Assembly: GCA_003560595.1 (NCBI GenBank)
Contig: PWKY01000050.1
Location: 1-42,531 of the forward strand
Direction: 5' to 3'
From: Thermoplasmata archaeon
Lineage (GTDB): Archaea; Thermoplasmatota; Thermoplasmata; Halarchaeoplasmatales; Halarchaeoplasmataceae
DNA: 42,531 bases
A model generated the notes under the pieces. The model worked only from the letters and a program-made list of their open reading frames with translations, ran no database searches and was not told the origin of the DNA. Within the stretch, counting starts at the first letter, position 1, and each line of letters starts with the position of its first letter. Positions 6,231-11,305 of this stretch are shown piece by piece. The translations under genes and the position numbers were made by a program.

Positions 6231-7406
6231 TCACAGCACCTTTTCCATAGCGGTCTTCATACGCCTGATCCCCTCTTCTATATCCTCAAGGGATGATGCG
6301 TAGGATATCCTCAGGAATCCTTCTCCTTGACTTCCGAAGGATGTACCCGGCAGCAAACATACACCGGCTTCATCGATCATGTAGTTGGCCAGTTCCTCAC
6401 TTTTCATACCTGTCTCCTTGATGTTCGGGAAGACATAGAAAGCTCCCTTAGGATATATACAGCTCATACCTGGGACCTCGTTCAGTCCCTGGACGATAGC
6501 CGTTCTTCGTTTCGTGAAGTGTTCCATTATATGATCCACAAAGTGCTGTCCGTTCCTCAACGCTTCAACACCTCCTTTCTGTACGAAGGAAGTCGTACAT
6601 GAACCAACATCTGCAAAGAGGTTGTGTGTTTTGTGGATGATCTCCTCAGGGGCAACCATGTATCCCAGTCTCCAGCCCGTCATGGAGTACGCTTTTGAAA
6701 ATCCGTCCACGATGATGGTCCGTTCCTTACACTCGTCAAGGTAGGATGGACTGTAGTGCTTTTCACCGTCATACAACATCTTACTGTATATCTCGTCGGA
6801 TAGGATATAGGCATCGTTCTCTTCAGCCATCTCGGCGATGGCTTCGATATCCTTCTTCTTCAGCACACCACCTGTAGGGTTCTGAGGCGAGTTCAGAAGG
6901 ATCAATCTGGTATCACCGGACATCTTCTCCTGCACCTGTTCAGGAGTCATCCTGAAATCATCTTTTTCGTAAAGAGGTATCTGCACTTTTTTGGCGCCCA
7001 TGTATCCTATCAAAGAATCGTACTGGAAGTAGAATGGGTTCTGATAGATCACTTCTTCTCCCATCTCCACTGTGGTCATCAAACCAAAGAATATACCAGG
7101 CTTTGCACCGGGAAGTACCATTATCTGTTCCTTGTCCGGTCTGAACCCTCTGCTCTTCTCTATATCGTCTTGTATGGCTTCGATCAGATCGGGTATCCCC
7201 AATGTAGGTACATAGTGTGTGAAACCTTCGTCCAAAGATCCCTTTGCCGCTTCTTTAACGTTCTCAGGAGTATCGAAGTCGGGCTGTCCTATCTCGAACC
7301 TCACCATATCTCGACCCTGTGCTTCCAGGCGGTTGGCCTTGGCCAGGTACTCGAGGGGGGGTTCCCCTCTGAGCATGGAAATATCCCCGGCTAATCCTTT
7401 TGACAT
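6231..7406 (-). CDS. class I/II aminotransferase, aspartate type
   Basis: A 391-residue PLP-dependent fold-type I aminotransferase. Visible signatures are FEIGQPDFDTPENV at the N-terminus, NSPQNPTGGVL, the DEIYSKMLYDG loop and GFSKAYSMTGWRLGY, whose Lys holds PLP. A substrate-binding Arg lies in GFLRISYA near the C-terminus. The family transfers amino groups from aspartate or other amino acids to 2-oxoglutarate. The ATG at 7406 leaves ten bases after the previous stop; a longer frame to 7448 would overlap the upstream gene by 32 bases and adds no family sequence. It is last in the operon with homoserine dehydrogenase and AOR, which favours aspartate/oxaloacetate exchange, by inference only. 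Confidence 0.88.
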   Translation of the reverse strand: MSKGLAGDISMLRGEPPLEYLAKANRLEAQGRDMVRFEIGQPDFDTPENVKEAAKGSLDEGFTHYVPTLGIPDLIEAIQDDIEKSRGFRPDKEQIMVLPGAKPGIFFGLMTTVEMGEEVIYQNPFYFQYDSLIGYMGAKKVQIPLYEKDDFRMTPEQVQEKMSGDTRLILLNSPQNPTGGVLKKKDIEAIAEMAEENDAYILSDEIYSKMLYDGEKHYSPSYLDECKERTIIVDGFSKAYSMTGWRLGYMVAPEEIIHKTHNLFADVGSCTTSFVQKGGVEALRNGQHFVDHIMEHFTKRRTAIVQGLNEVPGMSCIYPKGAFYVFPNIKETGMKSEELANYMIDEAGVCLLPGTSFGSQGEGFLRISYASSLEDIEEGIRRMKTAMEKVL

Positions 7407-7416
7407 GTGATTTCCC

Positions 7417-8367
7417 CTATGGTTTGGGTATGCACAGGTCTTTAGCACCGTGTTCTGACAGTTTAAGATCGGGGTATTTCTCCTGGATAATGTTGTGTAT
7501 TATCTCAGCGTACTTGACCTTCTCTTTAGCGAACTTTGCCAGGAAACCTTCATCTACCCACGGCTTGTACATGCCTGCTCCAGCAGCTAAACCATATCCA
7601 GGCTCGATCTTAAAGTAGCAGGGAGCGGATACGAGTGCAAGGTCAGGCGCCTCGTAGAAGCGGTTGAATCCTCCCATGGAATCCGCCAGATAGATGTGAA
7701 TGTCTATGGGTATATCTATAGCCTTCCTTATGGAAGCGAACATAGGTATGGATAGGTCTCCAACAGGGTTGAAGGTTCCTGCTCCAAGGTTTTCCAATAC
7801 CTTACCACCGGCAGCGTTGGCGTGTCCCGCATAAATCGATACTTTAAAGGTGATATCCTTAGGTATCAAACCTTTCTTTTTTAGTTCATTCGCCGCCCAC
7901 AGCATTCCTTCATCGGTAACTAAAAATCCTTTAAAACCGAAATCTATGCACCTTTTGATATCTTTGAATGCATAGACCATGTTGTCAGAGCCTCTAACTC
8001 TTAGTCCGGAAAGGGCTCCTTCTGGAGTGGCTATCTGTCGACCGGTGTTCCAGCTTGCACGAGGACCTGGCGTGATTATTACCTCCATGTCCGAATCCGC
8101 TGCCATCTGAGCAAAATCCTCCAGCTCGTCGTCGGTAAGTAATGTGCTTCCCATCACCGTGCTTATCAAACGATGAACGGGTATATCCCTCTCTTCTCTT
8201 TCTTCTATCAATGCCTCTAGTGTTGACGGCCGTTCGACACCGGATATCTCCATTCGGTATTGTGCACCGTCTGGGAAACTCTTCTCAGATCTAGGCAGGT
8301 CTTTAGGGTCTTCACTCGGAACGCCGATCTCTTCCAGGGCTTCTAAAATTTCTTTCATATAGTCCAT
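7417..8367 (-). CDS. U32-peptidase-like TIM-barrel protein
   Basis: About 316 residues with alternating strands and helices: MEVIITPGPRASWNTGR, GFKGFLVTDEGMLWAANEL, FKVSIYAGHANAAGGKVL, GAGTFNPVGDLSIPMFASI and IDIHIYLADSMGGF. This looks like the barrel of U32-peptidase-like proteins, a fold shared by collagenase-type peptidases and by several tRNA- and quinone-modifying proteins. I cannot name a substrate. The ATG at 8367 has GGTGG five bases upstream; an upstream in-frame TTG at 8385 is weaker. It sits between AOR and aminotransferase genes in one operon, so it probably acts on the same metabolites or helps make a cofactor for them. Confidence 0.6.
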   Translation of the reverse strand: MDYMKEILEALEEIGVPSEDPKDLPRSEKSFPDGAQYRMEISGVERPSTLEALIEEREERDIPVHRLISTVMGSTLLTDDELEDFAQMAADSDMEVIITPGPRASWNTGRQIATPEGALSGLRVRGSDNMVYAFKDIKRCIDFGFKGFLVTDEGMLWAANELKKKGLIPKDITFKVSIYAGHANAAGGKVLENLGAGTFNPVGDLSIPMFASIRKAIDIPIDIHIYLADSMGGFNRFYEAPDLALVSAPCYFKIEPGYGLAAGAGMYKPWVDEGFLAKFAKEKVKYAEIIHNIIQEKYPDLKLSEHGAKDLCIPKP

Positions 8368-8434
8368 ATTATCCACCAATTTCAATCAGTGGATAGGTTA
8401 ACATGTCTAAGGTATTTAACATCTCCGAATCAGA

Positions 8435-10267
8435 CTATAAGGTGAACTCCAATCCAAGTTCTTTCAGCTTATCCTCAGTAGGGATACCGTTTTCATCCCA
8501 ACCCCTGAGAGTGTAATATTCATCGAGCATCTCGTCGAACATCTCTTGGGTGAAGGCGTTGCCCTTTGTAGGACCGTCCGGCAGAGGCTCCATCAACCTT
8601 TTAGGCAGTTGATCGTCCTGGCGGTCCATACCTTCCCGAACAGCGAACATCCTGGCTAAGTTCCACATCCTTTCTCCGGCCTTCAAGTATTCATCTTCAG
8701 TGAGATCGAATCCGGTGGCGGTATTGAACATATCTACAAATATAGGCACGCCGAAGGGTACGAAATCACACATGACCAGGGAATAAGCGGCAGCCCTTTC
8801 GTCCTGTGTATCCTTCACCAACTTTGCCCTTCCGTCGGCGGAGAATCTATCTTCCATCTCCAATTCAGCCCTAACCGTCCACGCCCGTTGGTGACAGGCA
8901 CCTCTATCGCTGGTGGCGTAAGCTAGACCCATACCGGGGGAGCCTCTTGGCTCGTAACCTGGGAACTCCATGCCTTTGCAGTGCATCGCGAATTCTGAAG
9001 TACCTTGACCTACTTTTTCAGATGCTCTCATCACACCTTCCGCCAGCAGGTCACCGACCCCCTTTCGCTCTGCGATTTTTTTGATCAATTCGATGTATGG
9101 CTCTGCTTCACCGAAACGAGGCTCCAAGCCGTCGAAGTCCTCTTTGGAAAGGATACCCTTTTCAAAGCACTCCATAGCCCAGCCTAAAACGTTTCCAGTC
9201 GTTATACCGTCTAAACCCAACTCATCTACCAACAAACTGGCTTTGGACACCGCACCTAGATCTCCCATGCAGCAGTTAGAACCGAGTAAAACTAGGAGCT
9301 CGTATTCGGGACCTTCCAATTTAGTTCCTTTGAATTCGCCTTCTTTGACCACACTGTGTTTACCGCACCGTATGGGACAAGCATAGCAGCTCACATTATC
9401 TTCTACTATATCCTGTTCCATGGTCTCGCCGCTTATATCGTCAGCATCATCGAATACGGCATGCTGGAAGTTCTTAGTCGGCAAAATACCGTACTCGTTC
9501 ATGGGATTTATCCATATGGGAGTTCCGTATTTTGTCCGGTTGGGGATGAAATCGTCCTCCCGGGTGATACGGTAGGCTTCTTTGGAAGCTTTTTTGAACG
9601 CTTCGGGATGGGCCTGGCCTATGGTCCCGGTTCCTTTGACGGCTACGGCCTTGAGCTTCTTCGCACCCATCACCGCACCGGCTCCTCCACGCCCGGCTTG
9701 TCCGCCTCTTTCCTTCTGGTCGTGTGTATCTATGTTTATCATAGCATACTTGACCATATTTTCACCGCCAGGACCGATGCTGGCTACTCTGAGTGAATCT
9801 TCATGGTATTTTTCTCTCATGGCGACGGTGGTTTCAGAGGTAGTTTTACCCCATAGGTCCGACGCATCCTCGATGCTGACCTCATCGTCCTGGATAACCA
9901 CGGTACACGGTTCATCCGATATTCCCTTTATCACCAGCACGTCGTATCCCGCTTTCTTCAACGCCGGGCCGAAAAATCCACCGCAGTGACTGTCGTTGAA
10001 TATTCCAGTGAGTGGTGATTTGGTGACAACACAGTATCTGCCTGATGTAGGTGCTGATAACCCGGTCAAAGGACCGGTGACGAACATAAGGGGATTATCC
10101 GGTCCGAGGGGGTCGGTACCCGCTTCGGTACGGTCCCAAAGCATCTTTGCACCTAAGCCCTTTCCACCGATGAAGAGCTTTGCATCCTCCATGTTCAGGT
10201 CGGTGACATCCACTTTTTTATCAGTGAGGTCGATCTCGAGTACTTTTCCGGTGAACGCGCTATCCAT
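8435..10267 (-). CDS. aor: aldehyde:ferredoxin oxidoreductase (tungsten enzyme)
   Basis: The 610 residues are the usual length for the AOR family. The N-terminal domain shows GKVLEIDLTDKK, GGKGLGAKML and TGPLTGLSAPTSGR, and then HCGGFFGPALKKAGYD, which bind the two pterins. The [4Fe-4S] cysteines are CYACPIRC near residue 293 and a fourth Cys in VMCDFVPFG near residue 497. The enzyme oxidises an aldehyde to the acid and reduces ferredoxin in the cytoplasm, and can run in reverse. The start follows GGAGGG with good spacing, three bases after the homoserine dehydrogenase stop, so translation is coupled. That neighbour makes aspartate semialdehyde a candidate substrate. No ferredoxin or pterin synthesis gene is adjacent. 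Confidence 0.95.
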   Translation of the reverse strand: MDSAFTGKVLEIDLTDKKVDVTDLNMEDAKLFIGGKGLGAKMLWDRTEAGTDPLGPDNPLMFVTGPLTGLSAPTSGRYCVVTKSPLTGIFNDSHCGGFFGPALKKAGYDVLVIKGISDEPCTVVIQDDEVSIEDASDLWGKTTSETTVAMREKYHEDSLRVASIGPGGENMVKYAMINIDTHDQKERGGQAGRGGAGAVMGAKKLKAVAVKGTGTIGQAHPEAFKKASKEAYRITREDDFIPNRTKYGTPIWINPMNEYGILPTKNFQHAVFDDADDISGETMEQDIVEDNVSCYACPIRCGKHSVVKEGEFKGTKLEGPEYELLVLLGSNCCMGDLGAVSKASLLVDELGLDGITTGNVLGWAMECFEKGILSKEDFDGLEPRFGEAEPYIELIKKIAERKGVGDLLAEGVMRASEKVGQGTSEFAMHCKGMEFPGYEPRGSPGMGLAYATSDRGACHQRAWTVRAELEMEDRFSADGRAKLVKDTQDERAAAYSLVMCDFVPFGVPIFVDMFNTATGFDLTEDEYLKAGERMWNLARMFAVREGMDRQDDQLPKRLMEPLPDGPTKGNAFTQEMFDEMLDEYYTLRGWDENGIPTEDKLKELGLEFTL

Positions 10268-10270
10268 ATC

Positions 10271-11305
10271 TTATCCCTCCAGTGATTTATTGATGGCAAG
10301 TAGATCGACCAAGAGTGAAAAACCAGTTTCTTCTTTACCGGCTCCTGGCCCTACCACAGTTACATCTCCCAGCAGATCGGTTGAAAATGTGAGGGCGTTC
10401 GTGGGACCCATCACACCTGCCAAGGGATGGTTTAAAGGTATCTTTTCAGGAGCCACTTTAGCTTCTATACCTTTATCTGTTTTCTTCGTACTTCCCACCA
10501 ATTTCCATCTAAATCCCTCTTCCTTTGCTTTCTCCACATCTTCCAGCGATATGCCGGTTATACCTTCTCGTGCCACATCGCTTAACTTAAGGGTGGCCCC
10601 CATAACCGTGTTCGACAAGATCAGCATCTTTCCCTGGGCGTCTATGCCTTCGACGTCCCCTGTTGGATCGGCTTCAGCATAACCTAACTCTTGAGCTTTC
10701 TTCAAGGCATCTTCGTACTCCATCCTCTCTTCCATCTTAGATAATATGTAGTTGGTGGTTCCGTTGACGATACCTTTGATCTCTTTGATGTCGCACCCTG
10801 CCAGGGTCTCCCATGCAAGATTGATAGCGGGAGTACCGCTCAATACGGTGCCTTCGAACCGATACTGGACTTCGTTCCTTTTCGCGAGCTCCATCAGTTC
10901 AACGGCTGAAACCGCCACCGGTCCCTTAGTCGTGCTGACAACGTGTTTTCCAGCCTTCAAAGCGGTCTTCACATGTTCTAAAGCCGGGCCACCGGTTTTC
11001 ATGTCTGTATAGGTAACCTCAACGATGGTATCCGCGTTTGTCTCCTTGATCGTCTTTATAGGATCCCAACCTTTGATCCCTTCAGGATAATCTTCAAGGG
11101 ATACATCCTCCTCGACCATCTCCATCACTTTATCCATATCCAGACCGCTTTCGACGTAAACCGCCCCTTTATTCATGTCGGAGATCGCTACGATCTCATA
11201 TTCAAAATCGTATCTCTCTTTCAGTTCCCGCTCTTTATTCTGCAGTATCTCGGCCAATCCCTGACCTACCACACCGAATCCTATAAACGCCAGTTTGAAT
11301 TTCAT
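10271..11305 (-). CDS. hom: homoserine dehydrogenase
   Basis: The 344-residue protein begins with a Rossmann motif GFGVVG at residues 9-14. It carries the family signatures GIVNGTTNYILSKM and GYAEADPTGDVEGIDAQGK, including the catalytic Lys. There is no C-terminal ACT domain, so feedback inhibition by threonine of the common type is not expected, and no fused aspartokinase. It interconverts L-homoserine and L-aspartate 4-semialdehyde with NAD(P). The ATG at 11305 has AGGTGA five bases ahead; the GTG inside that motif at 11314 is the alternative. It is first in an operon with AOR, a U32-like protein and an aminotransferase. No aspartokinase or threonine synthesis gene is nearby. Confidence 0.93.
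   Translation of the reverse strand: MKFKLAFIGFGVVGQGLAEILQNKERELKERYDFEYEIVAISDMNKGAVYVESGLDMDKVMEMVEEDVSLEDYPEGIKGWDPIKTIKETNADTIVEVTYTDMKTGGPALEHVKTALKAGKHVVSTTKGPVAVSAVELMELAKRNEVQYRFEGTVLSGTPAINLAWETLAGCDIKEIKGIVNGTTNYILSKMEERMEYEDALKKAQELGYAEADPTGDVEGIDAQGKMLILSNTVMGATLKLSDVAREGITGISLEDVEKAKEEGFRWKLVGSTKKTDKGIEAKVAPEKIPLNHPLAGVMGPTNALTFSTDLLGDVTVVGPGAGKEETGFSLLVDLLAINKSLEG

Follow-up and report, generated by a model that had tools for sequence, protein, structure and literature searches.

A homoserine dehydrogenase (HOM) and a tungsten-type aldehyde:ferredoxin oxidoreductase (AOR), encoded side by side in a family of uncultured salt-lake archaea, probably join homoserine and aspartate by a redox route that has not been recognised before. 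The pair lies in a stretch of 42,531 nucleotides (the window) from a metagenome-assembled genome (MAG) of the Thermoplasmata, 92.7% complete, which belongs to the salt-lake family 'Ca. Haladaptatiplasma/Halarchaeoplasma'. Two of its close relatives, also Thermoplasmata MAGs, bear the names 'Ca. Halarchaeoplasma' and 'Ca. Haladaptatiplasma', under which soda-saline lake MAGs with an assumed salt-in strategy have been described (PMC11332174). The entire evidence for the HOM-AOR pairing comes from draft genomes of this single archaeal family (n=16, genera g1-g6).

In the proposed two-step redox pair, HOM would interconvert L-homoserine and aspartate 4-semialdehyde (ASA) with NAD(P), and AOR would interconvert ASA and L-aspartate with ferredoxin. 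In these mostly auxotrophic archaea the net flow would be oxidative, from homoserine via ASA to aspartate, yielding NAD(P)H and reduced ferredoxin, and the two remaining products of the operon, an aminotransferase (AT) and a U32-like barrel protein, would probably connect HOM and AOR with the pool of 2-oxo acids, either through 4-hydroxy-2-oxobutanoate/homoserine or through oxaloacetate/aspartate. This reading as a whole, including the oxidative direction and the link to 2-oxo acids, is given about an even chance of being correct.

The operon and its products

All four open reading frames are encoded on the minus strand (Table 1) and, with the start codons that are conserved in the relatives, are separated by gaps of 3, 67 and 10 bases, in keeping with the four leftward genes and gaps of 3-67 bases described in the first-pass annotation. 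No 16S rRNA gene was found in the window by the Rfam search, while a partial 23S rRNA gene occupies the contig end.

Table 1. Features of the window, listed for the operon in the order of the genes.
Feature	Position	Strand	Start codon	Basis
Four-gene operon	6231..11305	-		
Homoserine dehydrogenase (HOM), short form without ACT domain	10271..11305	-	ATG 11305 (alternative GTG 11314)	NF004912
Tungsten-type aldehyde:ferredoxin oxidoreductase (AOR), subfamily A	8435..10267	-	ATG 10267	PF01314, PF02730, tree
U32-like TIM-barrel protein, no function assigned	7417..8367	-	ATG 8367 (alternative TTG 8385)	alignments and AF2 model
Class I/II aminotransferase (AT), no substrate assigned	6231..7406	-	ATG 7406 (ORF extends to GTG 7448)	PF00155
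Partial archaeal 23S rRNA gene, contig end	40499..42531			

With 445 bits, HOM clears the cut-off of 373 bits set for its equivalog, homoserine dehydrogenase; the closest solved structure is 3do5. The gene was found in 14 of the 16 family genomes, including all nine of the good ones; the 14 orthologues share 67-94% identity with the window copy, and the signature GYAEADP-GDVEG-DAQGK is invariant across them. AOR matches both AFOR domains (PF01314, 479 bits; PF02730, 271 bits), and its cluster cysteines and active-site region align with the closest solved structures, 9g7j and 1aor. In the alignment with P. furiosus 1aor, read by eye, the motif CYACPIRC, the E of EGPEYE, the H of GACHQ and the C of LVMC are matched, residues taken to represent the [4Fe-4S] cysteines (CxxCxxxC...C) and the active-site region.

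AT belongs to the class I/II aminotransferases (PF00155, 221 bits), with 1dju/1gd9 as the closest solved structures. The aspartate role implied by its earlier designation as an aspartate-type enzyme is not established, the best NCBIfam match, an aspartate aminotransferase equivalog, reaching 348 bits, far short of the cut-off of 624.

Conservation of the HOM-AOR pair

Of the 14 family genomes with a HOM gene, 13 have an AOR gene immediately next to it, the two being co-directional in g1, g2, g3, g5 and g6 and convergent in g4; the sole exception is G086, where HOM has no AOR neighbour. As the genomes carry only 1-8 AOR genes each, this arrangement is not a matter of chance, and in G030 the HOM-adjacent AOR gene is the only one found. 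The full order of four genes, the conservation of which the first-pass annotation had proposed to check, is present in g1, g2 and g3 and probably also in g5, where the contigs break between AOR and the barrel gene. Within g2, an extra AT is inserted between AOR and the barrel gene of G006, and the order is split over two contigs in G079; the operon of G048 was assembled from two contigs, both ending in nearly identical AOR sequence. The barrel and AT genes, adjacent in every case where the contig permits inspection, form a pair separate from HOM-AOR in g4 and occur without HOM-AOR in G093.

In g2, g3, g6 and G086, the usual divergent neighbour of HOM is a gene for a glyoxylate reductase/2-hydroxyacid dehydrogenase (loci L018, L020, L021, L128 and L134). 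Another aminotransferase is present in two of these cases.

In the tree, the HOM-adjacent AORs split into clade A (g1, g2) and clade B (g3-g6), each supported at 100/100 and ~35% identical to each other. Clade B joins twelve other paralogues (96/99) apart from clade A, a grouping that is to be read as tentative at this depth and with such long branches. Since the HOMs are orthologous and their AOR neighbours come from two clades, the pairing has outlasted an exchange of AOR, which argues for chemistry in common.

AORs are broad-specificity enzymes, and the one next to HOM may clear other aldehydes, in which case it would be a general scavenger that has no substrate in common with an incidental neighbour. 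So far, a role has been defined for at least one member in only 5 of the 92 clades of tungsten oxidoreductases, and aldehyde detoxification is among these roles (PMC13328260). However, the adjacency in nearly all HOM-bearing genomes, in two orientations and with two AOR subfamilies, makes a merely incidental association decidedly unlikely. ASA, on the other hand, is HOM's own aldehyde, and because the gene order is conserved and the enzymes that usually form ASA are missing (see below), genomic context makes it the leading candidate substrate of AOR. The oxidation of ASA by AOR, as put forward in the first-pass annotation, is partly supported: its two genomic predictions have been borne out, but the sequence does not fix the substrate.

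Aspartate-family enzymes and the direction of flow

Profile and BLAST searches, on which all absences in the window genome rest, found neither a true aspartokinase (AK) nor a true aspartate-semialdehyde dehydrogenase (ASD), in line with the initial remark that neither was seen. For AK, the near-match proved to be a UMP kinase (TIGR02076, 264 bits); for ASD it was a saccharopine dehydrogenase, and for homoserine kinase a mevalonate kinase. Genomes with the operon had been expected to lack AK and ASD, and both are missing from 12 of the 16 family genomes, six of these being at least 90% complete and carrying HOM. In the four genomes where AK and ASD are jointly over cut-off (G030, G048, G055 and G079), their genes sit in methionine, aromatic or lysine clusters. 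A search of the family genomes with a chimeric query found MetX and a close MetY only in G030, G055 and G079, and in G030 and G079, where AK, ASD, MetX and MetY are all present and there is only one HOM, this enzyme probably also serves the synthesis of methionine, which counts against the oxidative reading.

Homoserine kinase (ThrB, TIGR00191) was over cut-off in none of the 16 family genomes, and the chimeric query detected no MetX, MetY or DapA in the window genome. No PF01118 protein was over cut-off in that genome either, and hence there is no ArgC or LysY. With AK, ASD, ThrB, MetX, MetY and DapA missing, HOM is therefore retained without its standard partners, and the window genome seems, judging from its gene content, to be auxotrophic for several amino acids.

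It had also been suggested that AOR, run backwards, would bypass AK and ASD. In such a biosynthetic route, AOR would reduce aspartate to ASA with ferredoxin, HOM would convert ASA to homoserine, and a ThrC-like enzyme would lead on to threonine. The retention of HOM when AK and ASD are not found would be explained in this way, and the window genome does contain two ThrC-like genes (TIGR00260, 167.2 vs 167.1; PRK06381, 371 vs 266), which are usable in the synthetic direction and to that extent count against the oxidative pair. In addition, the coupling of AOR to an alcohol dehydrogenase (ADH) is a known means of pulling acid reduction (PMC10816221). However, AOR reduces acids slowly, the undissociated acid is presumed to be its substrate, and in vitro the reaction was observed at pH 5, where methyl viologen served as the electron donor but ferredoxin did not (PMC10816221), whereas the hosts of the operon are soda-lake organisms. 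Moreover, a homoserine kinase of the TIGR00191 type is lacking throughout the family, and the window genome, devoid of a PF01118 protein, DapA, MetX and MetY, looks like that of an auxotroph and not of a prototroph with one odd route. The reductive bypass is consequently regarded as unlikely.

The oxidative direction of the HOM-AOR pair is favoured on the same grounds, namely the slow acid reduction by AOR, for which ferredoxin did not serve in vitro, and the apparent auxotrophy. Counting against it, a source of homoserine was not found, no catabolic cluster was seen, and the ectoine hydrolase DoeA/EutD was over cut-off in none of the 18 genomes searched. Ectoine degradation in the window's family was rejected on the latter result.

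The barrel protein and related pathways

The barrel protein of the window has no match of its own in Pfam or NCBIfam, and none to PF01136 at E<=10, but 16 of its 40 relatives match PF01136 (best 2e-7). No invariant or near-invariant cysteine was found among these 40 relatives. The U32-like label given at first reading can be kept in the sense of remote kinship, the protein appearing to be a very distant U32 relative at most. In alignments A1 and A2, its start codon is conserved and invariant residues are present; matches to pentatricopeptide proteins among PDB sequences covered short stretches only and were judged to be chance. Modelling with AF2 and the 40 relatives produced a TIM barrel with a pLDDT of 90.3 (a model made with 14 close relatives, pLDDT 45, was discarded), whose nearest folds are class II aldolases, followed by PanB and PrpB (2-methylisocitrate lyase). 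The TM-scores of ~0.45 are attainable by any TIM barrel, and therefore the fold assigns no function to the protein.

Relatives of the barrel protein were found in 32 of 399 sampled Bacillota genomes, often encoded between PanB and a GdhA-like gene and near EutD-, EutB- or DoeB2-like genes that remain below cut-offs, and in another Thermoplasmata family the barrel gene precedes two DapA-Fae fusion genes. These neighbourhoods hint at 4-hydroxy-2-oxo acid chemistry, which would be compatible with homoserine via transamination.

The Bacillota operon PanB - U32-like barrel - GdhA-like dehydrogenase was seen at L194 (3409-7942), L195 (4314-8658), L196 (5318-8545), L197 (5703-10077), L198 (5093-8350) and L199 (3750-8141). 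Several such operons adjoin ectoine-hydrolase-like, EutB-like or deacetylase genes, and the operon is perhaps an anaerobic route of ectoine-type degradation. The DapA-like aldolase-Fae fusion genes directly follow the U32-like gene in tandem at L027 (5659-8605) and, in the same layout, at L028 (9990-12940), both from Thermoplasmata, and are the only Fae copies in their genomes; by analogy with Fae-Hps fusions, the product is possibly a formaldehyde-releasing aldolase that carries its own trap. A second U32-like subfamily (37-40% identity; L205, L206, L175, L178) adjoins an Ldh2-type dehydrogenase and is also found near two-subunit fumarase/tartrate dehydratase-like or malic-enzyme-like genes.

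The same neighbourhoods bear on a further alternative, in which aspartate would be led through ASA and homoserine to 4-hydroxy-2-oxobutanoate (HOB), formed by AT, and on to pyruvate and formaldehyde/C1, the barrel protein being the lyase or a partner of it. To our knowledge, a route from aspartate via homoserine to pyruvate and C1 is known only as the engineered homoserine cycle. In its favour, the PanB and DapA-Fae neighbours both point to chemistry of hydroxymethyl groups and 2-oxo acids, the barrel model shows similarity to class II aldolases, PanB and PrpB, and the chain is that of the synthetic cycle (PMC8879981). Yet neither PanB nor Fae was found in the window's family, so that a partner of either kind was rejected there, and the modest TM-scores carry no specificity for these folds. 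GlyA (serine hydroxymethyltransferase) was detected in the window genome with the chimeric query, the GlyA part of which is presumably the E. coli sequence; a further C1 source is therefore not needed, and a substitute for a lacking serine hydroxymethyltransferase was rejected. A natural chain from aspartate to pyruvate and C1, with the tungsten AOR as an ASA oxidoreductase and the barrel protein as a new 4-hydroxy-2-oxo acid lyase, is accordingly held to be quite improbable.

The oxidative HOM-AOR pair has partial counterparts in several known systems. A literature search combining AOR, homoserine dehydrogenase and ASA found no paper among those it covered. The earlier statement that no such pathway is described needs a qualification, since both half-reactions are known. 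In ectoine degradation by Halomonas, DoeC performs the reaction proposed for AOR, the oxidation of ASA to aspartate (PMC3187862); AOR would do this job with ferredoxin, whereas DoeC is a relative of aldehyde dehydrogenases encoded in the doe cluster, and here a tungsten AOR stands beside HOM. The oxidation of homoserine to ASA is carried out in rhizobia by a type of homoserine dehydrogenase strongly biased to oxidation and tied to homoserine catabolism, although these are aerobic bacteria, have no AOR described and convert ASA to diaminobutyrate (PMC10228743). The AOR-ADH pathway of Thermoanaerobacter and others likewise links AOR with the NAD(P)-dependent interconversion of an alcohol and an aldehyde (PMC10816221), but with an alcohol dehydrogenase in place of the homoserine dehydrogenase, which implies an amino-acid substrate in the archaeal case. 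In the synthetic homoserine cycle, aminotransferases interconvert homoserine and HOB, the latter formed from pyruvate and formaldehyde (PMC8879981); that cycle was engineered in E. coli, whereas here it is the gene context that suggests the chain.

Few AOR clades have a known role, and the link to HOM provides this AOR with a specific amino-acid semialdehyde as a candidate substrate and, potentially, with the part that DoeC plays elsewhere, here linked to ferredoxin. Running in reverse, the pair would take the place of aspartokinase and ASA dehydrogenase without consuming ATP. In either case, clues from gene context have been gained for an unannotated barrel family of archaea and Bacillota.
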